From positions 1 through 64,000 of the forward strand of contig NZ_JACHGN010000033.1 of NCBI RefSeq assembly GCF_014202315.1: a stretch of DNA of 64,000 nucleotides. The letters run 5' to 3'. This stretch comes from Thermocatellispora tengchongensis. GTDB lineage: Bacteria > Actinomycetota > Actinomycetes > Streptosporangiales > Streptosporangiaceae. Both the position numbers and the translations under genes were made by a program. The notes under the pieces are model-generated. The model searched no databases. It had not been told where the DNA came from and saw only the letters and a program-made list of their open reading frames with translations. Shown here one piece after another: positions 18,380 to 55,579 of this stretch. The number at the start of each line of letters is the position of its first letter. The first letter of the stretch is position 1.

Positions 18380-18380
18380 C

Positions 18381-21110: not shown

Positions 21111-22610
21111 TCATGGCCGGGGGGCGGGTCGCAGGTGCGCGCGCAGGACGCGGCGCAGGAGCTTGCCCATCTCGTTGCGGGGCAGCGAATCGCGGACGTC
21201 GATCAGGGCGGGGACACGGCTGGAGCGCAGCCGGGCGGCCACCCACTCCCGCAGGTCCTCGGCGGAGACCCGGGCGCCTGGGCGCGGCACCACGGCGGCG
21301 GCCACGACCTCGCCCCACTGCTCGTCGGGCACGCCGAACACCGCGGCCTCGGCGACGTCCGGGTGGGCGATCAGCGCGTTCTCGATCTCGCCCGGGGACA
21401 GGTTCTCTCCCCCGCGCACGATCACGTCGTCGAGCCGGCCCTCGACGTAGACGTAGCCGTCCTCGTCGATCCAGCCGCCGTCGCGGGTGCGGAACCAGCC
21501 GCCCTCCTCCAGGTGGGAGGCGTGGGCGTACTCGCCGGACACCTGCGGGCCGCGCACCCACAGCTCGCCGGCGCTCCCCTGGGGCACGGGCCTGCCGCCG
21601 GAGTCGCGCACCTCGATCTCCACGGCGGGCAGCGGACGGCCGACCGACTCCAGGCGGCGCCGTACGCGGGGGTCGGCGGAGGCGACGGCGTCGCGGTGGT
21701 CCTGCGGGGTGAGCACGGCGATGGAGGAGGTGGTCTCGGTCAGGCCGTAGCCGTTGACGAAGTCCACGCCGGGCAGCAGCTCCAGCGCCCGCTCGATGAC
21801 GGGGCGGGGCATCCGGCCGCCGCCGTACGACAGGTGGCGCAGCGCGGGCAGCCCGCCGCCGTCGGCGCGCAGCACCTCGACGATGCGGGCCAGCATGGTG
21901 GGCACCACCATGGCGTGGGTGACGTGCTGCTCGCGGGCGAGCCGCACCCACTCGGCGGCCTCGAAGTTCGGGAGCTGCACGATGCGCCGCCCGCTGTAGA
22001 TCCCGGTGAGCAGCCCGGCGACCCCGGCGATGTGGTACGGCGGGACGCTCACCAGCGCCGCCTCGTCGGGGGCGGCGCTGAGCAGCTCGGTGCTCTCCAG
22101 GACGTAGCTGGTGAGGTGGCGGTGGCGCAGCACGGCCACCTTGGGCGTGCCGGTGGTGCCGCTGGTGTGCAGCAGGACGGCGGGCGCCTCGGGGTCCTGC
22201 GGCGCCGCCGTCTCGGTGGGAGGCATGGTCGCCGCGGTACGGAGCAGGTCGTCCGGGCCGGTGCCGGTCACGCCGGGCACCTCGGCGGCCAGGTCGAGGA
22301 CCGCCCGCCCGGCGACCAGCAGGGCCGGGGCCTGCGCGGCGATGAGGCGGCGCAGCGGATCGCCGGCCAGGCGGTAGCTGAGCGGGGCGAAGGGGCGCCC
22401 GGTCCAGGCCGCCGCGAACAGTGCGGCGGGGAAGGCGGGCGAGGCCGTCGTGGCGTACAGGACCGTGCCCTCGCCGCCGTCGAGGCGCCGGGCGGTGCGT
22501 GCGGCCAGGTCGAGCAGGCCGGCGTACGTCAGGCCGGTGTCGCGGTCGCCGAGCGCGACCCGGTCGCCGTCCGCGGCGGCCACGATCTCCAGCAGCGTGA
22601 GGATGTTCAT
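21111..22610 (-). CDS. AMP-dependent acyl-CoA ligase
   Basis: A 499-residue ANL-superfamily enzyme. The P-loop is LLHTSGTTGTPKVAV, the A5 motif is GYGLTETTSS, the hinge is GRLDDVIVRGGENLSPGEIE, and the catalytic Lys lies in PRNEMGKLLRR. It makes an acyl-CoA from a carboxylate and ATP through an acyl-AMP. The start is taken as ATG 22608-22610; the upstream in-frame extension lies in the preceding gene. It is near the 3' end of the P450/dehydrogenase operon. Confidence 0.93.
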   Translation of the reverse strand: MNILTLLEIVAAADGDRVALGDRDTGLTYAGLLDLAARTARRLDGGEGTVLYATTASPAFPAALFAAAWTGRPFAPLSYRLAGDPLRRLIAAQAPALLVAGRAVLDLAAEVPGVTGTGPDDLLRTAATMPPTETAAPQDPEAPAVLLHTSGTTGTPKVAVLRHRHLTSYVLESTELLSAAPDEAALVSVPPYHIAGVAGLLTGIYSGRRIVQLPNFEAAEWVRLAREQHVTHAMVVPTMLARIVEVLRADGGGLPALRHLSYGGGRMPRPVIERALELLPGVDFVNGYGLTETTSSIAVLTPQDHRDAVASADPRVRRRLESVGRPLPAVEIEVRDSGGRPVPQGSAGELWVRGPQVSGEYAHASHLEEGGWFRTRDGGWIDEDGYVYVEGRLDDVIVRGGENLSPGEIENALIAHPDVAEAAVFGVPDEQWGEVVAAAVVPRPGARVSAEDLREWVAARLRSSRVPALIDVRDSLPRNEMGKLLRRVLRAHLRPAPRP

Positions 22611-22621
22611 CGCGGCACCGT

Positions 22622-22927
22622 TCAGTCGGAGGCCGGCAAGGGCTTGGCGGCCTTGACGGCCAGCTCCCGGGAGCCCGCGGCCAGCGGCCCCGCTCCCCCG
22701 CGGGTGCACAGCAGTTCCAGCGTCCCCTCCTCGTCGCAGTACCGCTTGCCGATGAGCAGCGGGGGCGCGTCCGCCGGAGCGGCGGCGCCGGCGGCCTGGG
22801 CCTGCTCGAAGGGGATCATCGGGGCGCCCGCGCAGGTCAGGTGGACCTCGCCCTTCGGCGCGCGTATCACGATGACCTCGGCCTCGGAGGACGCGCTCCT
22901 GAGCCGCTGACCGGGGTTGAGCTGCAT
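22622..22927 (-). CDS. Small conserved-looking protein of unknown function
   Basis: A 101-residue protein, not recognised. It has a basic N-terminus (MQLNPGQRLRSASSEAEVIV), an IRAPKGEVHLTCAGAPMIPF stretch and a later YCDEEGTLELLCTRGG with two cysteines, three Cys in total. Hydrophobic and charged residues alternate as in a small beta-barrel, and a metal site is possible but not shown. It lies between the double-hotdog gene and the acyl-CoA ligase in one operon, so a role in that pathway is likely. Confidence 0.72.
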   Translation of the reverse strand: MQLNPGQRLRSASSEAEVIVIRAPKGEVHLTCAGAPMIPFEQAQAAGAAAPADAPPLLIGKRYCDEEGTLELLCTRGGAGPLAAGSRELAVKAAKPLPASD

Positions 22928-22948: not shown

Positions 22949-24076
22949 CTATCCGTAGATTCCGGGTGCGGGCTGCCGTTCCTCGGCGAAGAGCGGCGCG
23001 GGGGTGGGCACGGTCCCCTCGGCGGGCAGGCGGACCGTGGCCGTGCCGCCGGCGGTGACCACGTCCTCCTGGTTGACGTTGACGAGGTCGATCTCCGCGA
23101 GCAGGTCGCCGCCGTCACGGTAGGTGCGCTTCACCGTGCCCTGAACGGTGTTCATGTCGCCGACCAGGTTGGGCCGGCGCAGCCGGGTGTCGATGCGCAG
23201 CAGGTCGCCGTGGTCGCCCATCCAGTCGGTGACGGCCTGGATCATCCAGCAGATGCGCTGCGGGCCGTAGTCGAACGTGGTGGCCTGGGCGCGGTTGCGG
23301 CGGGCGTACTCCGGGTCGGCGCGCCCGCCCGCGCCCATGTCGATGGTGCCCTCGTCCACCGCGCGCGAGCGCCGCGTGTTCAGCGCCGCGTGGGCGAACA
23401 GGTACAGCTCGGTGACGGTGTAGGTGCCCTTGGGCAGGTCGGGCAGCTTATCCCCCGCCGACACGCTCTCCCAGTAGCGTGGCTCGGCCCCGCGCCGGGT
23501 GCGCTCCCATACCAGGGGGTCGGGGGCCACGCCGCCGGCCGGGCGGGCGGACGCCGTGGCGGCCTCGACTCCCTCGCCGGGGTTGGCGAAGCGCAGCATC
23601 TCGTTGGTCAGCCTGGCGACGAGCTCGCCGCGGGAGTTCCAGTACTCGGTGACGCCCGTGCACACGCACGCCTCGCCGATCTGCCGGGTGCTGGTGCGGC
23701 GGATGCCGGCCGGCGTCTCCACGCTGCGGATGCGGTCGCCGACGTAGATCGGCCGGTACCACTCCAGGGACGCGCCCAGGTACAGCATGGTGAGATCCTT
23801 GGTGGACACGTCGGACTGCGGGATGTGCCCCCAGATGGAGGCGTTGGCGCCGAAGTCGACGGAGAAGACGAACGCCGGTGAGGCGATCAGCTCCAGGTAG
23901 CGGCCGGAGACGTGGCGGGGGTCGCGGTAGAGCGGGTTGTAGTCGCCGGCGCCGTCGCCGAAGCGCCGGATCCACTCCTCGGTGACCGTGCGCCACGGCC
24001 GGGGGTGCAGCGGACGGCCGAGCCCTTCGCGGTAGGCGGCCTCGAACTCGTCCAGCGTGGTGATCTTGCCTGACAT
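22949..24076 (-). CDS. Double-hotdog MaoC-like protein, catalytic His replaced by Tyr
   Basis: A 375-residue protein with two hotdog-like halves. The N-terminal half has FGDGAGDYNPLYRDP, which matches the hydratase-2 motif D-x-N-P but has Tyr50 where His is expected (Asp45, Asn47 and Pro48 are kept). The C-terminal half ends ATVRLPAEG. Related two-domain proteins hydrate bulky enoyl-CoAs. The Tyr change may alter or abolish hydratase activity. It opens with MSGKITTLDEFEAAYREGLG, with AAAGGA before the ATG. Confidence 0.86.
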   Translation of the reverse strand: MSGKITTLDEFEAAYREGLGRPLHPRPWRTVTEEWIRRFGDGAGDYNPLYRDPRHVSGRYLELIASPAFVFSVDFGANASIWGHIPQSDVSTKDLTMLYLGASLEWYRPIYVGDRIRSVETPAGIRRTSTRQIGEACVCTGVTEYWNSRGELVARLTNEMLRFANPGEGVEAATASARPAGGVAPDPLVWERTRRGAEPRYWESVSAGDKLPDLPKGTYTVTELYLFAHAALNTRRSRAVDEGTIDMGAGGRADPEYARRNRAQATTFDYGPQRICWMIQAVTDWMGDHGDLLRIDTRLRRPNLVGDMNTVQGTVKRTYRDGGDLLAEIDLVNVNQEDVVTAGGTATVRLPAEGTVPTPAPLFAEERQPAPGIYG

Positions 24077-26441: not shown

Positions 26442-26463
26442 CGGTATCGCGGGCGGGCCGGCC

Positions 26464-27708: not shown

Positions 27709-27936
27709 TCAGCGGGTGGGGTCGATCTCGGCGCCTGCGGCGTCGCGGATGGTGATGGCCGACATCGGGCACAGCTCGAACGCCTCGGTCACCTCCTCAG
27801 CGGGCGCGACCTGCGCGCTGATCGGCGATGATCTGCCGTCGGTGAGGGTGAAGTGCTCCGGCGCGACGGCGACGCACATGCCGTTGCCGACGCAGCGCCG
27901 CCGGTCGACCTCCAGGCTCCACTTCTCGGCGGTCAC
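27709..27936 (-). CDS. 3Fe-4S ferredoxin, P450 partner type
   Basis: A 75-residue ferredoxin with Cys15-x5-Cys21 (RRCVGNGMCVAVAPEHF) and a single later Cys56-Pro, the pattern of one 3Fe-4S cluster. These small proteins are the usual electron donors of actinobacterial P450s. It starts at GTG 27934-27936, overlapping the SMP-30 stop as GTGA; longer frames belong to the SMP-30 gene. It lies 27 bp upstream of the P450. Confidence 0.93.
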   Translation of the reverse strand: MTAEKWSLEVDRRRCVGNGMCVAVAPEHFTLTDGRSSPISAQVAPAEEVTEAFELCPMSAITIRDAAGAEIDPTR

Positions 27937-28858: not shown

Positions 28859-29983
28859 TCAGCGCCCGGCGATGAGCGCGCCGAGGTGCTCCAGTTGCGC
28901 GGCCGGCCCGCCGAGCGCGAACTCGTTCCACTTGCCGGCGAGGAAGTGGCGGTGGACGGGATAGTCGAGGTCGGCGCCGATGCCGCCGTGCAGGTGCAGG
29001 GCGGCGTCGAGCACGCGCGCGCCGGCGTCGGCGGCCCACCACTTGGCGATGGCCACCTCCTCGGCCGCGGGCAGCCCCTGCTCTAGCCGCCAGATGGCCT
29101 GCCAGGCGGTCAGGCGGATGCCCTCGGTGTCGATGTAGGCGTCGGCGATGCGCTGGGCGACGGCCTGGAAGGTGCCGATCGGGCGGCCGAACTGCTCGCG
29201 CTGGGAGACGTAGCCGGCCGTCATGCGCAGGGCCGCGTCGCACGCGCCGAGCTGCCGGGCGCACACGCCGGCCGTGGCGCGCGGCAGCAGCCAGTCCAGC
29301 AGCTCCCCGCCCTCGCCCGGGGCTCGCAGCACGTCATCGGCGGCCACGGCCGCGTCCCGCAGGGTCAGCAGGTACGCCGGCTGCCCGCTGATCGTGTCCT
29401 GGCGCTCGGCGCTCACCCCCGCCGTGTTCGGGTCGAGGAGGAAGATCCCGGTGCGCCCGCTCGCGTCCGCGGCGGGCACCAGGACGCGTTCGGCGCGGTC
29501 GGCGAGCGGGACGAGTGTCTTGACGCCGGTCAGCGTCCAGGATCCGTCCGCGGCGGGGCTCGCGGTGGTGGCCGGGGCGTGCGCGGGGTGGCCGCCGGGC
29601 TCGGCGAGCGCGGCCGACAGCAGTGTGCGGCCCGCGGCCAGGCCGGGCAGCAGCCGGGCCTGCTGTTCCGCGGTGCCGAACCGGGCGACCGGCAGCCCGC
29701 CGAGCAGGATCGCCTCGTACAGGGGGATGTGCGCGGCCGACGCCGCGACGGCCTCGATGGCCACGCACAGCTCCATGAAGCCGGTCCCGCCGCCGCCGGC
29801 GTCCTCCGGCAACGGCAGGCCGATCAGGCCGGCCTCGGCCAGCTCGGCCCAGAGCTTCTCGTCGAACCAGTCGCCGCCGGCGGCGTCCAGCTCGTTGAGC
29901 CGCTCGGGCGTGGCGCGGTCGGCCAGGATCTCGCGGGCCAGCTCGCGGACGGCGAGCTGCTGTTCGTCGAAGGTGAAGTCCAC
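28859..29983 (-). CDS. Acyl-CoA dehydrogenase-like protein, second pair (smaller-type subunit)
   Basis: A 374-residue acyl-CoA dehydrogenase family member. It begins MDFTFDEQQLAVRELAREIL, has SQREQFGRPIGTFQAVAQRI and ends with LHLHGGIGADLDYPVHRHFL. The middle domain has SAALAEPGGHP where active dehydrogenases have SEPxxGSD, so it may be the non-catalytic subunit of a heterotetramer with the next gene upstream. Confidence 0.93.
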   Translation of the reverse strand: MDFTFDEQQLAVRELAREILADRATPERLNELDAAGGDWFDEKLWAELAEAGLIGLPLPEDAGGGGTGFMELCVAIEAVAASAAHIPLYEAILLGGLPVARFGTAEQQARLLPGLAAGRTLLSAALAEPGGHPAHAPATTASPAADGSWTLTGVKTLVPLADRAERVLVPAADASGRTGIFLLDPNTAGVSAERQDTISGQPAYLLTLRDAAVAADDVLRAPGEGGELLDWLLPRATAGVCARQLGACDAALRMTAGYVSQREQFGRPIGTFQAVAQRIADAYIDTEGIRLTAWQAIWRLEQGLPAAEEVAIAKWWAADAGARVLDAALHLHGGIGADLDYPVHRHFLAGKWNEFALGGPAAQLEHLGALIAGR

Positions 29984-30026: not shown

Positions 30027-31211
30027 TCAGCGCGGGGAGCGCGGGAGGCCGAGGCCGAGCTGGGCGATGAGGTCGCGCTGGATCTCGTTGGCCCCGCCGA
30101 TGAAGGTCATCACGTGCGCGGAGGCGGCCCGCTTGCCCAGGCCGCCGTCCAGGACCGCTTCGGGGGCGCCGGGGGCGAGATAGCCGTGCTGCCCGGTGAC
30201 CTCCGACAGCAGGCGGTTGGCCCGTACGGTGAGCTCGCTGCCGTACACCTTGGCCGCCGAGGCGTCGGCCGGCTGCAGCTCGCCCCGGTCCACGGCGGCG
30301 GCCAGCTTGTGGTTGAGCAGCTTGAGGAACTCGATCTCGGCGCGCACCCGGGCCAGGTTGGCGCGCACCCACGGCTGGTCGATGTGCCTGCCGCCGCCGG
30401 GGGTGCGCCGCGCCGAGGCCCATGCCACGACCCGCTCCAGTGCCTTCTCCAGGCCGGCGGCCGAGACCAGGGCGACGCGCTCGGTGTTGAGCTGGCCGGT
30501 CACCAGCTTCCAGCCGCCGTTCTCCGGGCCGATGCGGTTGGCGACCGGCACGCGTACGTCGTCGAAGCTCACCGCCGCGACGGAGTGCCGGCCCATCGTG
30601 CGCAGCCGGGTGGAGGAGATGCCGGGCGCGTGCCGGGGGACGAGCAGGACCGAGATGCCCTTGTGCTTGGGGGCCTCGGGGTCGGTGCGCACGGCGAGCC
30701 AGATGTAGTCGGCGGCCTCCATCATGCCGGTCCACAGTTTCTGGCCGTTGACGACGTACTCGTCGCCCTCGCGGACCGCTCGGGTGCGCAGCGAGGCCAG
30801 GTCGGTCCCGGACTCGGGCTCGGAGTAGCCGATGGCGAAGTGCACCCGGCCTTCGAGGATGCCGGCGAGCAGGGTGCGCTTGTGCTCCTCGGTGCCGTAC
30901 GCGGCGATGGCCGGGCCGACGCTGTTGATGGTCAGCAGCGGGGTGGGCACGTCGGCGTAGGCGGCCTCGTCGTTGAAGATGGCCTGCTCCACCATGGTGC
31001 GGCCCTGCCCGCCGATCTCCTTGGGCCAGCCGATGCCCAGCCAGCCGTCCTCGCCGAGCCGGCGCACGATCGCGCGGTAGGTCTCGGTGGCCTCCGGGAC
31101 GGAGTAGCCGTCGCGCAGGGCGTGCCGGACCTCCGGGGTCATGATCTCGCTGAAGTACTCGCGGAGCTCGTCCCGGAGGGCGAGTTGCTCGGGGGTGTAG
31201 GACAGACGCAC
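30027..31211 (-). CDS. Acyl-CoA dehydrogenase, second pair (larger-type subunit)
   Basis: A 394-residue acyl-CoA dehydrogenase with YSEPESGTDLASLRT, VNGQKLWTGMMEAADYIWLA and the C-terminal FIGGANEIQRDLIAQLGLGL. GTG 31209-31211 is preferred as start because AGGA precedes it; the in-frame extension upstream is Arg-rich and crosses the operator. It resembles the larger subunit of the pair at 17.3 kb, so the window encodes two parallel dehydrogenase pairs. It is the first gene of the 20-31 kb operon. Confidence 0.93.
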   Translation of the reverse strand: MRLSYTPEQLALRDELREYFSEIMTPEVRHALRDGYSVPEATETYRAIVRRLGEDGWLGIGWPKEIGGQGRTMVEQAIFNDEAAYADVPTPLLTINSVGPAIAAYGTEEHKRTLLAGILEGRVHFAIGYSEPESGTDLASLRTRAVREGDEYVVNGQKLWTGMMEAADYIWLAVRTDPEAPKHKGISVLLVPRHAPGISSTRLRTMGRHSVAAVSFDDVRVPVANRIGPENGGWKLVTGQLNTERVALVSAAGLEKALERVVAWASARRTPGGGRHIDQPWVRANLARVRAEIEFLKLLNHKLAAAVDRGELQPADASAAKVYGSELTVRANRLLSEVTGQHGYLAPGAPEAVLDGGLGKRAASAHVMTFIGGANEIQRDLIAQLGLGLPRSPR

Positions 31212-31315
31212 GAATGGTTCCTTCACGTCGATGGTGCCGGGCCGGACGGCCGGCCGGGATGCGACGGCTCGGTAACCCGCACCGTACGAGCGGGTTCTCG
31301 GGCGCGTCAATGCTT

Positions 31316-31331
31316 CAACAAACATTTGTTG
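31316..31331. promoter_or_regulatory. Putative TetR operator between divergent genes
   Basis: CAACAAACATTTGTTG has perfect 7-bp arms (CAACAAA/TTTGTTG) around two bases. It stands out as AT-rich in a GC-rich region and lies between the dehydrogenase start (31211) and the TetR start (31406). Confidence 0.72.
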
Positions 31332-31405
31332 CACGATCTTGCGGTGGCTCCGCGCCCGGCTCCGGCTGCGGAAACGGCGGCGCGGCGGTGTATCGTCCGA
31401 GCACG

Positions 31406-32005
31406 ATGAGCACGACGAACACCGGGCCGGGCGCGCAGAGCCGCCACGTCACGGCGATCTTGGACGCCGCGACGCGGCGCTTCGCCCAGACCGGCTATCA
31501 CGGCACCTCCATGCGCGACATCGGCGCCGAGATGGGCATGCACGCGGGCAGCCTGTACGTGCACATCCGCAGCAAGGAGGACCTGCTCGACGCGATCGTC
31601 TGGGACATCGCGCAGTCCACCGAGCGGCGGATGGAGGCGGTGCTGGCGGCGGGCGACACGCCGGTGGACAAGCTGCGCACGATCGCCGAGGAGCACCTGC
31701 GCTGGGTGGCCGCGAACCCCGACGCCGCCACGGTCTACTTCCACGAGTGGCGTCACCTGAAGGGAGAGCGCCTGGAGCGGGTCAAGGCCGCCCGCGCCCG
31801 GTGGACCCGCGGGCTGCGGGACATCATCCAGGCGGGCATCGACGAGGGCGCCTTCAAGCCGATGGACGTGCGCCTGGCCGGGCTCGCGTTCGTCGGCATG
31901 CTCAACTCGACCTACCGCTGGCTGCGGCCGGACGGCGACCTGGACACCGCCGAGATCGCGGGCACGTTCATGGACTTCCTGCTCCACGGCTGGGCGGCCG
32001 GCTGA
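31406..32005 (+). CDS. TetR-family regulator of the P450/dehydrogenase operon
   Basis: A 199-residue TetR regulator. The helix-turn-helix is AATRRFAQTGYHGTSMRDIG and AEMGMHAGSLYVHIRSKEDL, close in style to KstR2-like repressors. The start at MSTTNTGPGAQ (ATG 31406) is chosen because upstream in-frame codons cross the palindrome and are unlike coding sequence. No strong SD is visible, so the mRNA may be near-leaderless. It probably represses the divergent operon and is released by an acyl-CoA. Confidence 0.9.
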   Translation: MSTTNTGPGAQSRHVTAILDAATRRFAQTGYHGTSMRDIGAEMGMHAGSLYVHIRSKEDLLDAIVWDIAQSTERRMEAVLAAGDTPVDKLRTIAEEHLRWVAANPDAATVYFHEWRHLKGERLERVKAARARWTRGLRDIIQAGIDEGAFKPMDVRLAGLAFVGMLNSTYRWLRPDGDLDTAEIAGTFMDFLLHGWAAG

Positions 32006-32031
32006 GAAAGGCGTCTGGCGTCGCACGGCGG

Positions 32032-33177
32032 TCAGGCGACAACGCCCTGCGCGCGCAGCGCGTCGATGTCGGAGTCGGTGAACCCGGCGGCGGCCAGCAC
32101 CTCGCCGGTGTGCTCCCCGGGGCGGGGCGGCGGCTCGGGCATGCCGGCGGGGGTGCGCGCGAAGCGCGGGGCCGGCGCGGGCTGCGGGATGCCGTCCACC
32201 CGCGTGAACGCCTGCCGCGCGACCGCGTGGGGGTGCTCCACGGCCTCCACGGGGGTCAGCACCGGCGCGAAGCAGGCGTCCACCTCCTCGAACGCCGCGC
32301 ACCACTCCTTGAGGGTCCGGGTGCGGAACACCGCCGCCAGCCGCCGCTTCATCTCCGGCCACCTCGCCGCGTCCATCTGCGGCGGCAGGTCGCCGGCGTC
32401 CAGGCCGAGGGTGGCGATCAGGGCCTGGTAGAACTTCGGCTCGATCGCCGCCACCGCGACGTGCCTGCCGTCGGCGGTCTCGTAGACGCCGTAGAAGTGG
32501 GCGCCGGAGTCGAGGATGTTGGTGCCGCGCCGCTCGCTCCACCGGCCCGCGGCGGCCATGGCGTAGAACGGGGCCATGAGCGCGGCCACGCCATCGACCA
32601 TGGCCGCGTCGATGACCTGGCCCTGTCCCGACCGCCCGGCCTCCAGCAGCGCGCACACCACGCCGAAGGCCAGCAGCATGCCGCCGCCGCCGAAGTCGGC
32701 CACCAGGTTCAGCGGCGGCACGGGTGGGCCGCCGGCCTGGCCGATGGAGTACAGCGCGCCGGTGAGCGCGAGATAGTTCAGGTCGTGCCCGGCCCGCCGC
32801 GCCTCCGGCCCGTGCTGCCCCCAGCCGGTCATCCGGCCGTAGACGAGGGCGGGGTTGCGGGCCAGGCACTCGGCGGGCCCGATGCCCAGGCGCTCGGCGA
32901 CGCCCGGCCGGAAGCCCTCGATCAGCGCGTCGGCGCCGGCCACCAGCCGCAGCACGACGTCCGCGCCCAGCGGGTTCTTCAGGTCGACCTGCACGGATCG
33001 ACGTCCCCGGGAGAGGGTGTCGGTGCGGTGGCGGTCCGGCCAGCCGGCCCGGCCGCCCGGCATCCGCTCCACTCGGATGACCTCGGCTCCCATGTCGGCG
33101 AGCATCATCCCGGCGAACGGGACGGGCCCCTGTCCGGCCACCTCCACCACGCGCCTTCCCCTGAGAGGTCCGGCCAT
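32032..33177 (-). CDS. mcr: Alpha-methylacyl-CoA racemase (AMACR/MCR family)
   Basis: A 381-residue CaiB-fold protein with the racemase signature rather than a generic transferase one: RMTGWGQHGPEARRAGHDLN with His131, NLVADFGGGGM with Asp161, and AAIEPKFYQAL with Glu246. These match the His/Asp/Glu set of mycobacterial MCR. It inverts the C2 methyl configuration of 2-methylacyl-CoAs so that S-specific dehydrogenases can act, as needed for sterol and pristane side chains. ATG 33175-33177 is chosen over GTG 33181-33183 because GAGGAGG is correctly spaced. A MarR-type operator lies 17 bp upstream. Confidence 0.9.
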   Translation of the reverse strand: MAGPLRGRRVVEVAGQGPVPFAGMMLADMGAEVIRVERMPGGRAGWPDRHRTDTLSRGRRSVQVDLKNPLGADVVLRLVAGADALIEGFRPGVAERLGIGPAECLARNPALVYGRMTGWGQHGPEARRAGHDLNYLALTGALYSIGQAGGPPVPPLNLVADFGGGGMLLAFGVVCALLEAGRSGQGQVIDAAMVDGVAALMAPFYAMAAAGRWSERRGTNILDSGAHFYGVYETADGRHVAVAAIEPKFYQALIATLGLDAGDLPPQMDAARWPEMKRRLAAVFRTRTLKEWCAAFEEVDACFAPVLTPVEAVEHPHAVARQAFTRVDGIPQPAPAPRFARTPAGMPEPPPRPGEHTGEVLAAAGFTDSDIDALRAQGVVA

Positions 33178-33193
33178 GCCCACCTCCTCGCAT

Positions 33194-33225: not shown

Positions 33226-33267
33226 CATTAACACGCGAACGGACCCGCCAGGACACCGCCGAGTCCC

Positions 33268-33306
33268 GGCTTCAGGGCGTGGCTTCAGGGGGTGGCTTCA
33301 GGGAGT
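33268..33306. repeat. 13-bp x 3 tandem repeat over the marR stop codon
   Basis: GGCTTCAGGG plus three variable bases repeats at 33268, 33281 and 33294. On the minus strand each unit contains TGA, and the 13-bp period puts these stops in all three frames. Confidence 0.88.
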
Positions 33307-33786
33307 GAAGGTGTCGCGCAGGGAACGGGCGAAGCGGCCGAGCAGCACGCTGAACTGCTTCAACTCCGCCTCCGGCCAGTCGCGCAGCATCTCGTTGAGC
33401 ATCGCGATCGAGGTGGCGTCGATGTCGCGCACGGCCTGACGCCCGGCCGAGGTCATCGCCACGGCGACCGCCCGCAGGTCGCCGGCCTCGGTGTGCCTCT
33501 CGATCATGCCCGCGGCCTGCAGCCGGGCCAGCACTTTGCTGATGTTGGAGGCGCTGGTGCCCGTCTCCTGGGCGAGCGCGGACGGCCGGGCCGTCCCACC
33601 GCCGCGCTGCAGCGTGAGCAGCACGGTCGCCGCCGCGGCGTCCAGTTCGACGCCCGCGCGCGCCAGGATCAGGTCCATCATGCCGACCGCCGTCCAGCGG
33701 CCGATGATGAAGCCGAACGAGCTGAGAATCAGCGGGGCCCCCACATCGCCATCCAACGTGCCCGGCTCGCCGGACTCCTCGCCCAC
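33298..33786 (-). CDS. MarR-family regulator
   Basis: A 162-residue winged-helix regulator. The recognition region is ALAQETGTSASNISKVLARL and the wing is IERHTEAGDLRAVAVAMTSA. GTG 33784-33786 is taken as the start because AAGGAGGAGG directly precedes it; the longer upstream frame is Arg-rich and runs into the operator. Matching 32-bp operators before this gene and before the racemase suggest that it controls itself, the racemase and perhaps the divergent CoA-transferase operon. Confidence 0.9.
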   Translation of the reverse strand: MGEESGEPGTLDGDVGAPLILSSFGFIIGRWTAVGMMDLILARAGVELDAAAATVLLTLQRGGGTARPSALAQETGTSASNISKVLARLQAAGMIERHTEAGDLRAVAVAMTSAGRQAVRDIDATSIAMLNEMLRDWPEAELKQFSVLLGRFARSLRDTFTP

Positions 33787-33887
33787 GCCTCCTCCTTCGC
33801 CGCCCTGCGGGCGGCACGATCGCGTCCGCGTCGCGCCCGCTCGTTCCCGCGTCCGGCTCTTCCCTGTCCGGGCGACGCGCATTACGC

Positions 33888-33919
33888 TGTCGTTCCGACA
33901 TTGTTTCCGGGCGACAGTA
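33888..33919. promoter_or_regulatory. 32-bp composite MarR-type operator, copy 2
   Basis: TGTCGTTCCGACA (33888-33900, perfect 5-bp arms), then TTTCCGG and CGACAGTA. It lies between divergent marR and the double CoA-transferase gene and could control both. Confidence 0.75.
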
Positions 33920-34007
33920 TAGCTGGCGCCCTGCCGCGCGCCCGGGGCGCGCATGTCCCGAGCATACTCAGCCGGCGATCAAGCCGATCGGACGCGCCGG
34001 CGTCGCC

Positions 34008-34043: not shown

Positions 34044-34054
34044 AAGGAGCCGCA

Positions 34055-36343: not shown

Positions 36344-36365
36344 CCCCCAATCCGAAGGAGATCCC

Positions 36366-37417: not shown

Positions 37418-37807
37418 ATGCCATCTGCCGATGTCATCCGCGAAGCCGTGGCCCGTTATCTCAAGGCCGTGGCCGACGGCACGGCCGGCGACATCGCGGC
37501 CTGCTACGCCGAGGACGCGACGCTCGAAGACCCGGTGGGCAGTGAGCCGCGGCGCGGTCGCGCCGCGATCAGGGAGTTCTACGCGGCGATCGAGACGTCG
37601 AGACGGCACACCGAGCTGATCGCCCTCCGCGTCGCCGCCGGCAGCGCCGCCTTCCACTTCCTCGTCCGCACCGAGCTGCCGGATCAGACCATCGACGTGG
37701 CGCCGATCGATGTGATGACCTTCGACGAGGACGGCCGGATCACCTCCATGCGTGCGTTCTGGAACCCGGACGACATGGCTGTGCGGAGGCACGGTCAGGA
37801 CGGGTGA
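37418..37807 (+). CDS. ksi: Delta5-3-ketosteroid isomerase (KSI)
   Basis: A 129-residue NTF2-fold protein. It keeps the KSI catalytic set at near-canonical positions: Tyr14 (VARYLKAVADG), Asp38 (ATLEDPVGSEPRRGRAAIRE) and Asp98 (DVAPIDVMTFDEDGRITSMR). The DPVGSEPR-x-G-x-AAIREFY block is diagnostic of true KSI rather than general SnoaL-like proteins. It moves the C5-C6 double bond of 3-keto-delta5 steroids to C4-C5. It stands alone after a hairpin and right before a broken FGE fragment. It is the most direct evidence for steroid metabolism in the window. Confidence 0.88.
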   Translation: MPSADVIREAVARYLKAVADGTAGDIAACYAEDATLEDPVGSEPRRGRAAIREFYAAIETSRRHTELIALRVAAGSAAFHFLVRTELPDQTIDVAPIDVMTFDEDGRITSMRAFWNPDDMAVRRHGQDG

Positions 37808-38171: not shown

Positions 38172-38227
38172 AGCGTGTGGTTAACATCCGGGACACATCT
38201 CACCCCTTCGAAACCACGGGGTCCCCC

Positions 38228-43568: not shown

Positions 43569-45071
43569 TCACGAGGCGGTGCCGGATTCGGCGTCCGTGG
43601 GAGTGTGGGGACGGTAGGAGACCTCGCGCACCACGACCTCGCCGGCGACCGGCTCGACGCCGAACGTGCGACCGGTGAAGCCGCCGGCCACTTCGGTTGA
43701 CAGGTAGCGTCCGTCGAACGCGCCGAGAACCTGGGGCGTCCCGTCGGCGGCCAGGACGGCCAGTTCCACGACGTCGGGCTCCGGCGGTGGCATGGGGCCG
43801 GCCGCCGCGGGTTCCCGGACCGAGATGCGCAGCCTCACCCCATCGCCCGGGGGAACCGGCACCCGCGCGATCGTCGTGCGGGCCGGTCCGACGACCACGG
43901 TGGCCTCGACCGTCTCGGCGTCGGCCGTGAGCCCATACCAGTGGGAGCCGTCGATGCCGACGATGAAGCGCCCGGTGCCCCTGGAGGTGTCGAGCCGGGC
44001 CTCCGCTGTCCACTCAAGGTCCCGCGCACGCGCCGCCAGCACCGGCCTCGGGTCGCCCTCGGCGGGCGCCGTCAGCACGAGGCGGCCGGGCGCCTGCCAC
44101 GTGGTGAACGTGTGCGGGAACAGGTTCGGCGACACCCAACGCCGGTCGAGCTCGAAGGAGTCGAACCGATCGACGAAGGAGTGGTCCGGCGGCACCGGGG
44201 CGAAGCGCCCCTCATCGACCACAGGCCAGCCGTCGACCCACTCCACGCCCGCGATGAACGTCTCACGGCCGTTGACGTGGAACATCGGGGTCTGGCCGCG
44301 GGGGCGTACCCCGAGATACACCATGGCCCACGAGCCGTCGGCCAGTTGGACGAGGTCGGCATGGCCGGTGTTCTGCACGCGATGACCCGAGCTGCGATGG
44401 GTGAGGATCGGATTGGCCGGCGCCGCCTCGAAGGGTCCATCCAGCGAACGGGAACGCGCGATGGTGACCGCATGCCCCCGCTCCGTACCGCCTTCCGCGA
44501 GCAGCAGGTACCACCAGCCGTCACGTCGGTAGAGGTGCGGGCCCTCCGGGTAGGCCAGCCCGGTGCCGTTCCAGAGCGACTTCGGCGGGGCGAGCATCGC
44601 GCCCGTCGCGGGGTCGATCGGCGCGCTGATGATTCCGGTCAGCTCAGGCGCGGTCGATGCCCAGGTGAGGTGGCATATCCCGTCCTCGTCCCAGACCAGG
44701 TCCGGGTCGATCCCGATGGCGCCGTCCACGTAGACCGGCTCCGACCATGGCCCCGCGGGGTCATCGGCCGAGACGATCATCTGGCCGCGGTGGATTTCCA
44801 CCACGTTCGTGGTGACAAGCCAGAACCTCCCCCCGTGGTGGCGAAGCGTCGGTGCGTACACTCCCGTGCTCGCGGGGGCGGCACGCACGTCCAACTGCTC
44901 GGGACGCTGCAGCGCGTTGGTCACCAACGTCCAGCTCACCAGGTCGGTGCTGCGGTGGATCGGCACGCCTGGCGCGTACTCGAAGCTGGAGTTGGCGATG
45001 TAGTACGTCTCTCCCACCCGGCAGATGGTCGGGTCGGGGTAGAACCCCGCGATGATAGGTGTCGTCGTCAC
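43569..45071 (-). CDS. GH43 glycosidase (beta-xylosidase/alpha-L-arabinofuranosidase)
   Basis: A 500-residue protein. The five-bladed GH43 propeller has Asp13 (FYPDPTICRVG), Asp122 (GIDPDLVW) and Glu176 (AYPEGPHLYRR), the base, pKa modulator and acid. A C-terminal beta-sandwich (about 310-490) is typical of the GH43 subfamilies that include xylosidases. No signal peptide is present, so it acts inside the cell. The start is GTG 45069-45071. It lies 78 bp after lacI and shares its transcript. Confidence 0.94.
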   Translation of the reverse strand: MTTTPIIAGFYPDPTICRVGETYYIANSSFEYAPGVPIHRSTDLVSWTLVTNALQRPEQLDVRAAPASTGVYAPTLRHHGGRFWLVTTNVVEIHRGQMIVSADDPAGPWSEPVYVDGAIGIDPDLVWDEDGICHLTWASTAPELTGIISAPIDPATGAMLAPPKSLWNGTGLAYPEGPHLYRRDGWWYLLLAEGGTERGHAVTIARSRSLDGPFEAAPANPILTHRSSGHRVQNTGHADLVQLADGSWAMVYLGVRPRGQTPMFHVNGRETFIAGVEWVDGWPVVDEGRFAPVPPDHSFVDRFDSFELDRRWVSPNLFPHTFTTWQAPGRLVLTAPAEGDPRPVLAARARDLEWTAEARLDTSRGTGRFIVGIDGSHWYGLTADAETVEATVVVGPARTTIARVPVPPGDGVRLRISVREPAAAGPMPPPEPDVVELAVLAADGTPQVLGAFDGRYLSTEVAGGFTGRTFGVEPVAGEVVVREVSYRPHTPTDAESGTAS

Positions 45072-46238: not shown

Positions 46239-49157
46239 TCAGTCCTCTTCGGAGAGTGTCAGGCGCCACTGCCAGGCGTATTCGCGCCGGGGCAGCCGAT
46301 ACGCGGGCAAAGTGTCGGGGCCCAGAAGTCCGGTGCCGACGCCGCGATGAGCGATGTCGAGATGGACGACGGTCTTGCGGCTCGGCCGCAGTTCCCACCA
46401 GTGTGCCGCCGCCTCCAGCTCGCTGATCGCGTAACGGCTCACGGTCATGTGCAGGGGCGTCGCGTGCACGGTTCGCACGGTTCCGGCCGGGCCGGACAGG
46501 CGTAGTTCGGTGACCTCCCCGCGGCCACCGTTCTCCTGCGGTTTCAGATACGGCACGGCGAGATCGCCGATGGGGCTCTCCCACGCGCCGAGCAGGGCCG
46601 AGGCTCGGCGGTCGGGGTAGTTCTCCCACGGCCCCAGCCCCACCCATCGGGCCTGTTCGAAGCCGTCCACGAGCTCGAACTCCATGCCCACGCGCAGCCC
46701 GTCGCCGACGGCATCGGGCAGCGTCACATGCTCGGCCAACAGGTAGTCTCCCTGGTCCAGGACCGTGACGGTGCGGGTGTGCACGACCTCGTCACCGAAG
46801 GCCGCGCGGTACCGGATGGTGGCCGTCCCGGCGTCGGCGCGGACATCGATGGGCGTGAGCTGGAAGAAACCGGATCGGACGAACCGGTTGTCCAGGGCGA
46901 ACGACTGGTCGTTGTCGGTCAGGGCCCGCCACAGGCACAGTTGCGGCCCACGGCGCAACAGCGGATGACGCACTTCGGCGTGTGCGGTGCCGGTGTCACG
47001 GGGAAGGCGCGGCAGCCTGCGGGGGAAGGTGACCTGATGGGCGGAGACCTCTGTGCCCGCCGGCGCCCACACGGCGTCCCGGCGCGTACGCACGCTCACG
47101 GTGAGCGCCAGGGCCGTGCCGAGCAGCGCACGGATCGAATCCGGCACGTCGATGATGGCCTCCGCACCTGGCGCCGCCGGCGGCGCGGGGAGCGTGACCG
47201 CGCCCACCGGCCCGTCTTCGGTCTCCACCTGCAGCCGCAGGTCGTAGGCACCGAGGTCGGCGAAGGTCTGCCGGTTGCGCAGCCGTAACGTACCGGCCTG
47301 GGCCTCCTCCGCGCCGGAGGTGATGCGGATCGGGCTGAACAGGCCGCGCGCCTCGTACAGCGCGGGCTTGGGGGTGAGGTCGGGGAAGACCACGCCGTTG
47401 AGGAGCGTGACGCCGTCGTTCGGCTCGTCGCCGAAGTCGCCGCCATAGCGGTACCGGCCGTCGCCGTCGGGGTCGAGCGCGTGGTCCTTGAATTCCCAGA
47501 TGAAGCCGCCTTGCAGGCCCGGCAGGTTCTCGAACAGCCGCCAGTACTCGGCCAGTCCGCCGGTCGAGTTCCCTTGCGAGTAGGCGTACTCGCACAGGAT
47601 GACCGGCCGGTCCGCTCGCGGATCGGCGGAAAAGGCCGTGAGGGCCTCGAACGAGGGATACATCGGGCAGACCAGGTCGCTGGCCGCGTGGCCGGCATGC
47701 CAGTCCCTGGCGATCGCGCCTTCGTAGTGCAACGGCCGTGTCGGATCGACGGCGCGCACCCACGCGGCGGCGGTATCGTGGCTGGGCCCGTAACCGGTCT
47801 CGTTACCGAGCGACCAGATGATCAGCGAGGGATGGTTACGGTCGCGCAGCACCATCCGGGAGACCCGCTCGACGAACTCGGGCAGGTAACGCGGATCGTG
47901 GGCGAGCGTGGTGGTGAAGGCGTGCCCCTCGATGTCGGCCTCATCGACCACGTAGAAGCCGATCTCGTCGCACAGGTCGAGGAAGACCGGGTCGTTGGGA
48001 TAGTGCGAGGTACGGATCGCGTTCACGTTGAACCGCTTGAGCAGGGACAGTTCCGCCAGCATCAGCTCCCGCGAGATGACGCGGCCGGTGCGCGGGTCCA
48101 CATCGTGGCGGTTGACTCCCTGGATGAGCACGCGTTCGCCGTTGACCAGCAGGTCACGCCCCTCGATGCGTACGCGGCGGAAACCGATGCGCAACCGCGC
48201 CGTGTCCACGGTCTCGCCCGCGGGCGAGACCAACTCGACCAGCAGCTCTTCCAGATGCGGTGTCTCGGCCGTCCAGGGGGCGACCTCAAGGGCGTCGAGT
48301 GTGAGGACCGCGGTGCCCGCCTTCTCCCGCGGCGGCATCATGCCATCGGCCGCCGGGCGCAGTTCCTCGGCGATGGGAGCGCCGGCCGCGCGCAGGCTGA
48401 GCAGATCCATGAGCCCGTCGGGGAGGCCCAGCGGCTTGGGCCGCTTCGAGCGATCGGTCAACGGCGGCGCGAAGGCGGGCTCCACCACGCGCGGGCTGAT
48501 TCCGCGTGTCTCCGTCCGGCCGAGCACCTCGATCCGTGCCGACCACGCGACCTCGTGCAGATGGTCCAGTCCGGCCGTGGCCACCGTCACTTTCAAGCTT
48601 CCGCGCCCGGCCTCGTAGTCCGCCACCACGGCCACGTCACGCAGGTGCACCTCCGGCACGGTGTAGAGGAACACCGATCGGGACAGGCCGGCCTGCCACC
48701 AGTGGTCCTGGTCCTCCAGGTAGGTGACCGCCGACCATTTGGCGATCTGGAGCTCGATCGTGTTGGAGCCCGCTATCACGGCGTCGGTGATGTCGAACTC
48801 GGCCGCGAGATGCGAGTCGGTGCTGGTCCCGACGGGGTGGCCGTTGACGGTGACGCTCAGGTGACCTTCGGCGGCGCCGACGTGCAAGATCGTCCGGCGC
48901 CCCGGTTGTGGCGTCAGTTCCACGGTCCGCCGGTAGACACCGGTTGGATTGTGCTCCGGGACCGCGGGAGGCACCTCGTCGAACGGCATCGCGACGTTGA
49001 GATAGTGCGGCGGATCGGCCTTCTCCCGCATCGTCCACAGTTCCGGCACCTCCACGCTCTTCCACTCCTGCTCATACGGCAGGAGCCGGAACTCCCACGT
49101 CCCGTCGAGGACGATGTCGGGCGTACGGCGCAGCGCCCCCATGGGCAGGCGTTTCAC
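46239..49157 (-). CDS. GH2 beta-galactosidase (LacZ-like)
   Basis: A 972-residue protein with the LacZ layout: N-terminal jelly-roll (WWQAGLSRSVFLYTVPEVHL), immunoglobulin-like domain, TIM barrel and C-terminal beta-sandwich. The acid/base Glu453 is in IIWSLGNETGYGPSH and the nucleophile Glu523 in ILCEYAYSQGNSTGG. An insert of roughly 80 residues (about 220-300) lies in the second domain. The usual His after CEYA is Tyr (CEYAYSQGN). GTG 49155-49157 has GAGGAG upstream. It would remove beta-galactose or a related sugar. Confidence 0.94.
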   Translation of the reverse strand: MKRLPMGALRRTPDIVLDGTWEFRLLPYEQEWKSVEVPELWTMREKADPPHYLNVAMPFDEVPPAVPEHNPTGVYRRTVELTPQPGRRTILHVGAAEGHLSVTVNGHPVGTSTDSHLAAEFDITDAVIAGSNTIELQIAKWSAVTYLEDQDHWWQAGLSRSVFLYTVPEVHLRDVAVVADYEAGRGSLKVTVATAGLDHLHEVAWSARIEVLGRTETRGISPRVVEPAFAPPLTDRSKRPKPLGLPDGLMDLLSLRAAGAPIAEELRPAADGMMPPREKAGTAVLTLDALEVAPWTAETPHLEELLVELVSPAGETVDTARLRIGFRRVRIEGRDLLVNGERVLIQGVNRHDVDPRTGRVISRELMLAELSLLKRFNVNAIRTSHYPNDPVFLDLCDEIGFYVVDEADIEGHAFTTTLAHDPRYLPEFVERVSRMVLRDRNHPSLIIWSLGNETGYGPSHDTAAAWVRAVDPTRPLHYEGAIARDWHAGHAASDLVCPMYPSFEALTAFSADPRADRPVILCEYAYSQGNSTGGLAEYWRLFENLPGLQGGFIWEFKDHALDPDGDGRYRYGGDFGDEPNDGVTLLNGVVFPDLTPKPALYEARGLFSPIRITSGAEEAQAGTLRLRNRQTFADLGAYDLRLQVETEDGPVGAVTLPAPPAAPGAEAIIDVPDSIRALLGTALALTVSVRTRRDAVWAPAGTEVSAHQVTFPRRLPRLPRDTGTAHAEVRHPLLRRGPQLCLWRALTDNDQSFALDNRFVRSGFFQLTPIDVRADAGTATIRYRAAFGDEVVHTRTVTVLDQGDYLLAEHVTLPDAVGDGLRVGMEFELVDGFEQARWVGLGPWENYPDRRASALLGAWESPIGDLAVPYLKPQENGGRGEVTELRLSGPAGTVRTVHATPLHMTVSRYAISELEAAAHWWELRPSRKTVVHLDIAHRGVGTGLLGPDTLPAYRLPRREYAWQWRLTLSEED

Positions 49158-51082: not shown

Positions 51083-53341
51083 ATGACCACTCATCACGAC
51101 GATGACAGACCCGCCGCCGACGCCTCACAGGCGGCACCGCTTTCCGGGATTCCCGCAGAGCGGAAGGCGAGCCTGCTGTCCGGCAGGAACTTCTGGGAGA
51201 CCGAAGCGCTCGAAGAAGCGGGGATCGCCGCGATAGCGATGGCCGATGGGCCGTATGGTCTGCGGCACCAGTCCGGCCATCATGACAACCTCGCGCTGTT
51301 CGAAAGCGATAAGGCGACCTGTTTCCCGCCCGGCGTCGCGATCGGCTCCAGCTGGGACCCGGCCATGGCGGCCCGGCTCGGCACAGCGCTCGGCAAGGAG
51401 GCGGCCGCACAGGGAGTCGATGTCGTTCTCGGCCCAGGCGTCAATATCAAGCGCTCCCCGCTGTGCGGGCGGAACTTCGAGTACTACTCCGAGGACCCGC
51501 ACCTGTCCGGTGTTCTCGGGGCCGCGTTCACCCGCGCTCTCCAGGCCGAGGGCCCAGGCGCGTCCGTGAAGCACTTCGCCGCGAACAATCAGGAGACGAA
51601 CCGGCAGACCATCAGCTCCGATGTCGACGAGCGCACGCTCCGCGAGATCTACCTGCCGGCGTTCGAACACATCGTCACCGAGGCGCGCCCGGCGACGGTG
51701 ATGGCGTCCTACAACAAGATCAACGGCGTGAGCGCCTCCGAGAACCGGTGGTTGCTCACCGAGGTGCTCCGCGGCGAATGGGGCTTCGAAGGGGTCGTCG
51801 TCTCGGACTGGAGTGCGGTGACCGACCGGGTCGCGGCTCTTAAGGCGGGCCTCGATCTCGAAATGCCCGGTGGTGACATGGGCCACGACGAGGACGTGCT
51901 CACGGCCCTGCGATCCGGAGAGGTCTCAGAATCCCACGTCGATGCGAGTGTCGCGCGGATCGCCGCGCTGGCCCGGCGCAAGGTGACCTCGGCCGCCGCG
52001 GTCGATTACGAGGAGCACCACCGGATCGCCCGGCAGATCGCGCAGGAGTGCGCGGTGCTGCTCCGCAACGAGGACCAGGTCCTGCCCATCCCCGGTGGGG
52101 TCCATGTCGCGGTCATCGGCGCGTTCGCCGAGCACCCGCGGTATCAGGGCGGGGGCAGCGCGCACGTCAATGCGACGCGCGTCGACCGGCCGATCGACGA
52201 GATCCGTACGATCGCGGCCGAGGTGGGAGCGACCGTCGGCTACACGCCCGGGTTCGTCCTCGATGGGCCGCGGGACGAGCGGCTCGTCTCCGACGCGATC
52301 GCCGCGGCCCGCAGCGCCGACATCGCGGTGGTGTTCGCCGGTCTGAGCGAACAGCGGGAGTCGGAGGGATTCGACCGGGACACCATCGACCTTCCCCCGG
52401 CACAGGTCGAGCTCATCCGCGAGGTCGCGGCCGCCGCGCACCGCACCGTCGTCGTCCTCGCCAACGGCGGCATCGTCTCGCTGGAGGGATGGCACGACGA
52501 CGTGCACGCGATCCTTGAGGGATTCCTGCTCGGCCAAGGAGGCGGACACGCTGTCGCCGACATCCTCTTCGGCCGGGTGAACCCGTCCGGCCACCTGGCC
52601 GAGAGCATCCCCATCCGGCTCCAGGACCATCCGAGCTGGCTGAACTTCCCCGGCGAGCAGGGACACGTGCGATACGGCGAGGGAGTCCTCGTCGGCTACC
52701 GCTACTTCTCCACCGCGGGGACTCCCGTGAGATACCCCTTCGGGCACGGCCTGTCCTATACGACGTTCGAGACACGCGCTCTGCGCGTCACCCGCAAGGG
52801 CGCCGACAGCGCGACCGCCGAAGTCGTGGTGACCAACACGGGGACTCGTGCCGGCAAGCATGTCGTCCAGGTCTACGTGGCGACCGAAGCCGGGCCCGTC
52901 CGGCGCCCGCTGCGGGAGCTGCGGGGGTTCGCCAAGGTCCGGCTCGACCCCGGCGAGACCGCGACGGTGGAGATCGACCTTCCCCGGCGCGCCTTCGCAT
53001 ACTGGGACGTCCGCGTGGGTCGCTGGGCGGTCGCCCCAGGCGACTACCGCATCGAGGTGTGCGCCGACGCCAACACCGTGCTGCGGTCCTCGACCCTCAC
53101 ACTCCAGGGCGAGCGCATCGCCACCGAGTTGACCATGGACACCCCCGTCGGGGCGTGGTTCGAGCATCCCGGCGTGGGCTCGAAGGTCATGGACGCGCTC
53201 GGGCTGACAGGCGCGCCGATCACCGAGGAACAGATGGCGATGATCGCCTCAATGACGATGCGGCAGTTCATCGGCATCTCGGGCCTGGACGTCTCCACGG
53301 ACGCTCTGCGATCACTCATGGCGGCCAGCCGCCCGGCCTGA
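51083..53341 (+). CDS. GH3 beta-glucosidase-type enzyme, first copy
   Basis: A 752-residue GH3 protein with an (alpha/beta)8 domain, alpha/beta sandwich and fibronectin-III domain. The nucleophile is Asp242 in VVVSDWSAV; KHFAANNQETNRQ and the likely acid region SEQRESEGFDRDT are present. It ends with a helical extension (WFEHPGVGSKVMDALG, MTMRQFIGISG) also seen in the second GH3. No signal peptide. It would release glucose or xylose. It lies 19 bp after the MFS gene. Confidence 0.94.
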   Translation: MTTHHDDDRPAADASQAAPLSGIPAERKASLLSGRNFWETEALEEAGIAAIAMADGPYGLRHQSGHHDNLALFESDKATCFPPGVAIGSSWDPAMAARLGTALGKEAAAQGVDVVLGPGVNIKRSPLCGRNFEYYSEDPHLSGVLGAAFTRALQAEGPGASVKHFAANNQETNRQTISSDVDERTLREIYLPAFEHIVTEARPATVMASYNKINGVSASENRWLLTEVLRGEWGFEGVVVSDWSAVTDRVAALKAGLDLEMPGGDMGHDEDVLTALRSGEVSESHVDASVARIAALARRKVTSAAAVDYEEHHRIARQIAQECAVLLRNEDQVLPIPGGVHVAVIGAFAEHPRYQGGGSAHVNATRVDRPIDEIRTIAAEVGATVGYTPGFVLDGPRDERLVSDAIAAARSADIAVVFAGLSEQRESEGFDRDTIDLPPAQVELIREVAAAAHRTVVVLANGGIVSLEGWHDDVHAILEGFLLGQGGGHAVADILFGRVNPSGHLAESIPIRLQDHPSWLNFPGEQGHVRYGEGVLVGYRYFSTAGTPVRYPFGHGLSYTTFETRALRVTRKGADSATAEVVVTNTGTRAGKHVVQVYVATEAGPVRRPLRELRGFAKVRLDPGETATVEIDLPRRAFAYWDVRVGRWAVAPGDYRIEVCADANTVLRSSTLTLQGERIATELTMDTPVGAWFEHPGVGSKVMDALGLTGAPITEEQMAMIASMTMRQFIGISGLDVSTDALRSLMAASRPA

Positions 53342-55179: not shown

Positions 55180-55544
55180 ATGGAACGGCTCATCGACCGA
55201 CCTACCGTGATCGCCGGTGCCGGCGCCGGCCGGGCCATGGCCCTGCGGCTCCCGGCCGAGGGCGCCCGGGCGGTGGCCTCCGACGCCTCCGGGGAAGGGC
55301 TGGCGGAGACCGCGTCCCTCGCGGCCGGGGACCGGCTCACCATCGTCGGCGTGGACGTCGCCGCATCCATGGCCGCGTACGCGGCCGGCCGAGGCGGCGT
55401 CGCCTCCTTCGCCCACAGCATCGCCCAGCAGCACGGCAGGTGAACATCGTGCCGGGCGGGATCAGCAGCGGCGTGCCGGTCTCGGACCACGGCTCGTTCA
55501 TCACCGGCGCCGGGATCCGCAGCGACGGCGGCACCCATCAGTAG
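55180..55544 (+). pseudogene. Decayed short-chain dehydrogenase
   Basis: GGAGG precedes an ATG giving an SDR-like start (IDRPTVIAGAGAGRAMALRL, an altered glycine motif) that stops at 55443. The shifted frame continues GTG 55440-55544 as VNIVPGGISSGVPVSDHGSF, ITGAGIRSDGGTHQ, an SDR C-terminus. The NAG motif and the Tyr-x3-Lys site are missing, so an internal deletion of about half the gene is likely. It sits as first gene of the GH3/GH1 transcript. Confidence 0.75.
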
Positions 55545-55579
55545 TCCAATCGTCCGCATCCCCCGAAGAGAAATGGCAG

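Follow-up and report, generated by a model that had tools for sequence, protein, structure and literature searches.

A predicted ketosteroid isomerase gene between steroid-type side-chain genes and a glycosidase cluster in Thermocatellispora tengchongensis

The window analysed here, a stretch of 64,000 nucleotides from the actinobacterium Thermocatellispora tengchongensis, encodes a protein that, judging from its sequence and its modelled fold, is very probably a genuine member of the classical ketosteroid isomerase (KSI) family and the soluble isomerase of its host in steroid catabolism. Enzymes of this kind move a double bond within a steroid. The enzyme itself is ordinary, one more member of a textbook family, and its larger setting matters more: the gene lies at the border between side-chain genes and sugar-removing genes, a position suggestive of an organism that may feed on steroid glycosides from plants.

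A ketosteroid isomerase of the classical family

The KSI frame begins with ATG and encodes 129 residues, and its GC content by codon position (0.68/0.51/0.88) is coding-like in a window of 72% GC. Searches against the PDB with phmmer gave as best match 6p3l (E = 2.2e-25), assigned by its PDB title to the KSI of Mycobacterium hassiacum (mhKSI); a D38N variant of mhKSI ranks between this chain and 1ocv, the Comamonas KSI (E = 2.2e-22). Chance would not give matches of this quality. In the alignment to the Pseudomonas putida KSI, Y14, Y30, D38, Y55, D98 and W115 correspond to Y16, Y32, D40, Y57, D103 and W120, identical at all six positions. The general base (D38/D40) is thus present, as an Asp found in 62 of the 64 aligned rows, and the oxyanion hole (Tyr14/16 and Asp99/103) is represented by Y14 and D98. 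The EDPVGSEPR block is identical in the Comamonas enzyme. An AlphaFold2 model built from a 17-row alignment (mean pLDDT 94.7) superimposes on Comamonas KSI crystal structures with query-normalised TM scores of 0.85-0.90 (about 0.89) and on mhKSI with 0.81-0.84. The first-pass annotation had claimed that Tyr14, Asp38, Asp98 and the DPVGSEPR block fit a KSI, and the position of the open reading frame, the residues, the phmmer matches and the predicted fold all agree with it.

Enzymes of this family act on delta5-3-ketosteroids. From what is known of them, Asp38 would abstract the C4-beta proton from such a substrate and return the same proton at C6, and Tyr14 and Asp98 would hold the dienolate oxygen. 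The resulting delta4-3-ketosteroid would pass to KstD and KshA, the side chain would be shortened by the neighbouring operon and, should a steroid glycoside be the substrate in nature, its aglycone would be released by the adjoining glycosidases. The isomerisation, the source of the 3-ketone and the substrate used in nature are all inferred here. One study reports that all 20 putative KSIs assayed isomerised 5(10)-estrene-3,17-dione (PMC8754429).

Phylogeny and origin of the gene

The evolution of the protein was studied in a quick maximum likelihood tree of 62 rows, which included paralogues from the host's own genome and no named SnoaL cyclase. The window KSI pairs with that of Pseudonocardia nigra (83% identity, SH-aLRT 96). 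Both belong to an actinobacterial set of 48 rows in which mhKSI is also found, and the Comamonas KSI branches just outside. Two paralogues of the host (L002 and L005) fall outside the 48-row set, L002 on a branch of length 3.97. Since much of the branching order is unsettled and some branches are long, only this coarse placement is used. The placement among SnoaL-like cyclases that the first-pass annotation had set against its own reading is not seen in this tree, in which paralogues of the host are the only sequences that stand for such proteins.

Five places in the host genome match KSI at E <= 0.01. The best after KSI itself (E = 3e-7) is devoid of the oxyanion Asp and adjoins a long frame whose start, judging from a motif, may be that of a polyketide ketosynthase. 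In the alignment to the P. putida enzyme, the D103 position is V in L002 and A in L005, and the latter also has no equivalent of Tyr16 or Asp40. The KSI of the window is therefore taken as the only such gene found in this genome.

Among 60 relatives, six including the host itself have a KSI match at E <= 1e-12, and the other five proteins are only 34-49% identical; hence, the gene may have arrived by transfer. At third codon positions its GC content (0.88) falls short of the values for the short-chain dehydrogenase (SDR, 0.99) and CoA-transferase (0.95) upstream and resembles that of the glycosidase side. Together with the nearest relative being from Pseudonocardia, this lower value suggests that KSI arrived separately from the operon beside it.

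The neighbouring side-chain genes

KSI is the last gene of a rightward run made up of a double-length CoA-transferase (CaiB_dbl), the SDR, a gap of 146 bases and KSI (Table 1). A scan found no promoter-like or terminator-like sites near it. The first-pass annotation had placed acyl-CoA genes beside KSI; profile and PDB matches confirm them and, by their sequences, they are a steroid-type side-chain module.

Table 1 Features predicted in the window
Feature	Position	Strand	Matches and remarks
Ltp2-like thiolase, ChsH2-type DUF35, MaoC and FAS1-type hydratase genes	5903..8391	-	
Second adjacent acyl-CoA dehydrogenase pair	17252..19430 (17252-18379, 18381-19430)	-	
Acyl-CoA synthetase (FadD)	21111..22709	-	Weak sub-cut-off CasG match (NF052580, 216 of 750 bits)
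MaoC/FAS1-type hydratase (MaoC2)	22949..24076	-	PF13452 E 1.5e-15; relatives in four other genomes
Cytochrome P450	26464..27681	-	Best matches macrolide-type P450s, CYP125 weaker
C-terminal portion of a longer reading frame, ferredoxin-like	27709..27936	-	Fer4_13, PDB ferredoxins
Acyl-CoA dehydrogenase ACAD_E5, partner subunit	28859..29983	-	6wy8_A E 1.2e-78, 4x28_D E 4.3e-59
Acyl-CoA dehydrogenase ACAD_E4, first subunit of a FadE26-FadE27-like pair	30027..31334	-	4x28_A E 3.7e-130, 6wy9_A E 1.2e-111
TetR-type regulator	31214..32005	+	
Family III CoA-transferase	32032..33183	-	PF02515 E 9.7e-88
MarR-type regulator	33298..33954	-	
Double-length family III CoA-transferase (CaiB_dbl), 796 aa	33953..36343	+	PF02515 E 2.5e-146; counterpart in conserved module
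SDR, (3R)-hydroxyacyl-CoA dehydrogenase / 17beta-HSD4-like, 301 aa	36366..37271	+	Pfam adh_short
KSI/ksdI, predicted delta5-3-ketosteroid isomerase, 129 aa	37418..37807	+	Catalytic Y14/D38/D98, supporting Y30/Y55/W115
GH78 alpha-L-rhamnosidase, 802 aa	39504..41912	+	84% over 802 aa in G458
GH43 glycosidase	43569..45071	-	86% in G458
GH2 beta-galactosidase-type glycosidase	46239..49157	-	80% in G458, 67% in G726
GH3 glycosidase a	51083..53341	+	
GH3 glycosidase b, 995-aa frame, N-terminus uncertain	55217..58204	+	87% in G458, 78% in G726
GH1 glycosidase	58201..59376	+	88% in G458

The ACAD_E4 and ACAD_E5 proteins match 4x28 and the Tcur3481-Tcur3483 enzyme in both of their chains; we take these two enzymes to be, respectively, the FadE26-FadE27 (ChsE4-ChsE5) dehydrogenase of steroid side-chain oxidation and its homologue. 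The Ltp2-like thiolase has 4u4e as its best match (E = 4e-127) and also matches the lipid-transfer protein 6ok1 (E = 2.5e-51). The SDR matches 2et6 (E = 2.3e-90) and the 17beta-HSD4 1zbq (E = 9e-54); it was considered as a 3beta-hydroxysteroid dehydrogenase, but it is closest to hydroxyacyl-CoA dehydrogenases of the 17beta-HSD4 type. The P450 is not clearly a CYP125, since macrolide-type P450s match better. The other family III CoA-transferase (32032..33183) could be of the alpha-methylacyl-CoA racemase type. The steroid cluster also contains branched-chain-amino-acid-type ABC uptake genes (12404-17081), with the permease and binding protein recognised by Pfam and the ATPases assumed, which are perhaps a steroid importer. 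A protein of 101 residues without Pfam match (hyp101, 22622-22927) accompanies FadD in the host, twice, and in G458, G704 and G726.

The distribution of the module was explored by searching the MaoC2 protein against 341 genomes of the family, which yielded five positives: the host, G458, G534, G704 and G726. The set ACAD, CaiB_dbl, SDR, P450, MaoC2, hyp101 and FadD is kept in four of them (window, 21111-37271; G704, contig C63, 39-51.5 kb; G726, C18, 67.8-85 kb; G458, C1, 30.8-41.5 kb) and is partial and scattered in G534. The window, G704 and G458 also have a MarR gene next to it. The run ACAD-ACAD-CaiB_dbl-CaiB-MaoC2-hyp101-FadD is common to G704 and G726, with the SDR and P450 inside the run in the former and about 6 kb on in the latter, where the module is embedded among KshA, HsaA, HsaB and HsaF. 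None of the four relatives has a KSI within the module. No convincing KSI was found in G458 or G534, and those of G704 and G726 are relatives of only 38-43% identity on other contigs. KshA is present in the host and G726; G458 has no match at E <= 1e-5, and G704 and G534 have none either. With KshA missing from three of the four relatives that carry it, the module beside KSI has no strict link to ring degradation. This absence, together with the lacking or distant KSI in all four relatives, leaves room for the module to serve other isoprenoid side chains, as it may.

The glycosidase cluster

Directly after KSI, the cluster at 38177-59376 contains a transporter of the major facilitator superfamily (MFS; frame 38177-39490), then GH78, GH43, LacI, GH2, MFS, GH3, ADH, GH3 and GH1 genes. 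Orthologous glycosidases adjoin the side-chain module in two other genera. In G458, the module (there FadD-MaoC2-P450-SDR-CaiB_dbl-ACAD) directly adjoins relatives of LacI, GH2, GH3, GH3, GH1, GH1, GH43 and GH78 (59-88% identity) in a gene order that differs from that of the window. In G726, GH106, GH43, GH2, GH3, GH1, GH78 and GH3 genes lie no farther than about 85 kb from the module and are interspersed with KstD and Hsa genes, the GH2 gene standing between KstD and HsaE/HsaC/HsaA/HsaD. Glycosidase and steroid-type genes are thus close in three of the five module-bearing genomes. No glycosidase match was found in the 120 kb examined in G534 or in the 57-kb contig of G704, which ends about 5.5 kb past the module. 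The persistence of the linkage despite altered gene order suggests a joint function. The rhamnosidase, galactosidase and glucosidase families (GH78, GH2, GH3 and GH1) that would be looked for in a saponin locus are found beside the side-chain module, here as in G458 and G726.

Ring degradation in the host and KSI in other actinobacteria

The genes of the 9,10-seco route of steroid degradation (KshA, KstD and HsaA-D) are all found in the host, on a contig (C15) other than that of KSI. KshA is above its cut-off (E = 4.3e-93), and the HsaA, HsaB, HsaC, HsaD and KstD family matches are strong but below the NCBIfam equivalog cut-offs. The same contig carries an HsaF family match and an HsaE-like hydratase, and the host's match to 4-hydroxy-2-oxovalerate aldolase is above its cut-off. 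Between HsaA and KshA lies a GH78-like rhamnosidase gene in pieces of different frames (C15:310497-312281, L012). A FAD dehydrogenase of the PRK07121 family is encoded near KshA in the host (L013:404-1981) and adjoins KSI in P. nigra (L025:2305-3801); we would guess that it is possibly a delta4-type ketosteroid dehydrogenase.

Contig C2 carries a gene with a cholesterol-oxidase substrate-binding domain (PF09129, E = 5.5e-149). For this reason KSI does not replace an absent sterol oxidase, a role that was considered and discarded, and for cholesterol it may be redundant. PF01073 could not serve to recognise a 3beta-HSD, as it matches in all 14 control genomes. Regulation by KstR was also rejected: scanning the window with a KstR-like motif gave 7 one-mismatch matches against 2.27 expected, the four in the steroid half sit inside genes, and none was found within 6 kb of KSI. 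A CasG-type steroid-24-oyl-CoA synthetase, looked for as part of the actinobacterial cholate cluster (ksdI, casG), was not found in the cluster, the FadD match being below the cut-off (Table 1).

The first-pass annotation also held that actinobacterial sterol degraders seldom carry a stand-alone KSI, a claim that the wider distribution of the gene does not support. Among 396 Actinomycetota genomes sampled, the host being one of them, KshA (E <= 1e-40) was found in 16 and a KSI relative (E <= 1e-20) in 13. Leaving the host aside, 11 of the 15 KshA-positive genomes have KSI (the others are G206, G354, G408 and G350) and 11 of the 12 KSI-positive genomes have KshA (the exception is G190). The 11 genomes with both are not independent, as they all belong to one family. 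A single scan of named genomes gave 39 related KSI loci, mostly from Nocardia. When core genes of the host served as queries (>= 40% identity, within the fetched stretch), at least one of KshA, KstD and HsaA-F was found at 23 of these loci and at least two kinds at 20, counts inflated by near-identical Nocardia strains. The stretches fetched at the remaining 16 loci contain no core steroid gene, and short stretches cannot explain all of these because some are full length. In P. nigra, the gene order is acetaldehyde dehydrogenase, 4-hydroxy-2-oxovalerate aldolase, FAD dehydrogenase and KSI; in Nocardia rosealba, two KstD-family genes flank KSI, with an HsaD homologue 2.8 kb on. Nocardioides simplex is reported to have two ksdI genes in its KstR regulon (PMC7593942, PMC7807495) and Saccharopolyspora hirsuta to have ksdI within cholate-type clusters (PMC8708139). 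Therefore, stand-alone KSI is a normal component of actinobacterial steroid degraders, which corrects the idea of its rarity.

Evolutionary and functional scenarios

Several scenarios may explain the position of KSI. It is quite plausible, if somewhat short of probable, that a genuine KSI of a general sterol or bile-acid pathway stands beside the operon and the glycosidases by accident. The lower third-position GC and the Pseudonocardia affinity of the gene fit this reading, as do the published ksdI genes of cholate-type clusters and the KstR regulon, and the regions searched near the module and the glycosidase clusters in G458, G704, G534 and G726 contain no KSI. Nevertheless, the adjacent genes form a steroid-type side-chain module, and no second KSI was found in the genome.

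Alternatively, the region could be a catabolic island for steroid glycosides (saponins), a reading we regard as a reasonable possibility that falls short of being the probable one. The glycosidases would remove the sugars, a dehydrogenase or oxidase would convert the 3-hydroxyl into the delta5-3-ketone, KSI would isomerise it to the delta4-3-ketone, the module would trim the side chain and the genes of contig C15 would open the rings. The glycosidases that follow KSI, those next to the module in G458 and G726 and the broken GH78-like gene of C15 are in its favour. Moreover, two reports describe how solanine and chaconine are jointly deglycosylated by the GH2, GH3 and GH78 enzymes of the actinobacteria Arthrobacter S41 and G. 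halophytocola S2 (PMC10653915, PMC9597252). Against it stand the lack of KshA in G458, which has the joint cluster, and in G704 and G534, and the lack of glycosidase matches in the stretches examined of G534 and G704; such glycosidase sets also serve plant polysaccharides, as those of the window could. A literature search found no paper joining saponin, glycoside hydrolase and ketosteroid isomerase.

A more specific and more tentative form of the saponin scenario, drawn from gene content, is that KSI belongs to a modular actinobacterial island in which a portable FadE26/27-type operon joins glycosidases (G458 and the window) and, in addition, ring-cleavage genes (G726); the released delta5-3-ol aglycone would be oxidised and then become the substrate of KSI. 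Should the glycosidases work jointly with the steroid module, all steps that lead from a plant saponin into central metabolism would be present in this family, with a bearing on rhizosphere ecology, saponin detoxification and the supply of sapogenin-derived steroids.

Finally, it is very improbable that the protein is a SnoaL-like cyclase or epoxide hydrolase of polyketide or other metabolism which merely resembles KSI: Pfam gives superfamily-level names only (SnoaL_2, E = 1.7e-16; SnoaL_4; NTF2; DUF4440), NCBIfam gives weak sub-cut-off matches, among them a ketosteroid isomerase-related model, and the polyether enzyme SalBIII (5cxo) likewise comes close in structure (TM 0.88), but KSI chains outrank 5cxo by sequence and by fold, no polyketide genes occur among the window genes scanned, and the tree, the structure comparison and the complete active site speak against a SnoaL cyclase.

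Comparison with known systems

The KSI of Comamonas testosteroni (8cho, 1ocv, 1ohs) shares with the window protein Y14, D38, P39, Y55, the D99 equivalent and EDPVGSEPR (45% identity over 110 aligned residues, TM 0.89), but it has Phe at the positions of Tyr30 and Trp115, and the window protein belongs to the actinobacterial clade. The P. putida enzyme (1e3v) agrees at all six active-site positions checked, with 35% identity over 126 aligned residues. The KSI of M. hassiacum (6p3l) belongs to the same actinobacterial set (45% identity), but it has Ser at the Asp98 position (Asp103 in P. putida), where the window protein keeps Asp.

The ksdI genes of N. simplex and S. hirsuta, compared here by their reported setting, are also actinobacterial but belong to steroid regulons or cholate-type clusters, whereas the window KSI adjoins a FadE26/27-type module and glycosidases and has the core ring genes of its host on another contig. 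The saponin loci of Sphingobium sp. RC1, Glutamicibacter halophytocola S2 and Arthrobacter sp. S41 have GH2, GH3 and GH78 in common with the window and a GH106 whose counterpart is found in G726; that of Sphingobium sp. RC1 also has sapogenin-oxidising enzymes. Unlike in these three loci, the predicted glycosidases of the window adjoin an acyl-CoA side-chain module and a KSI.
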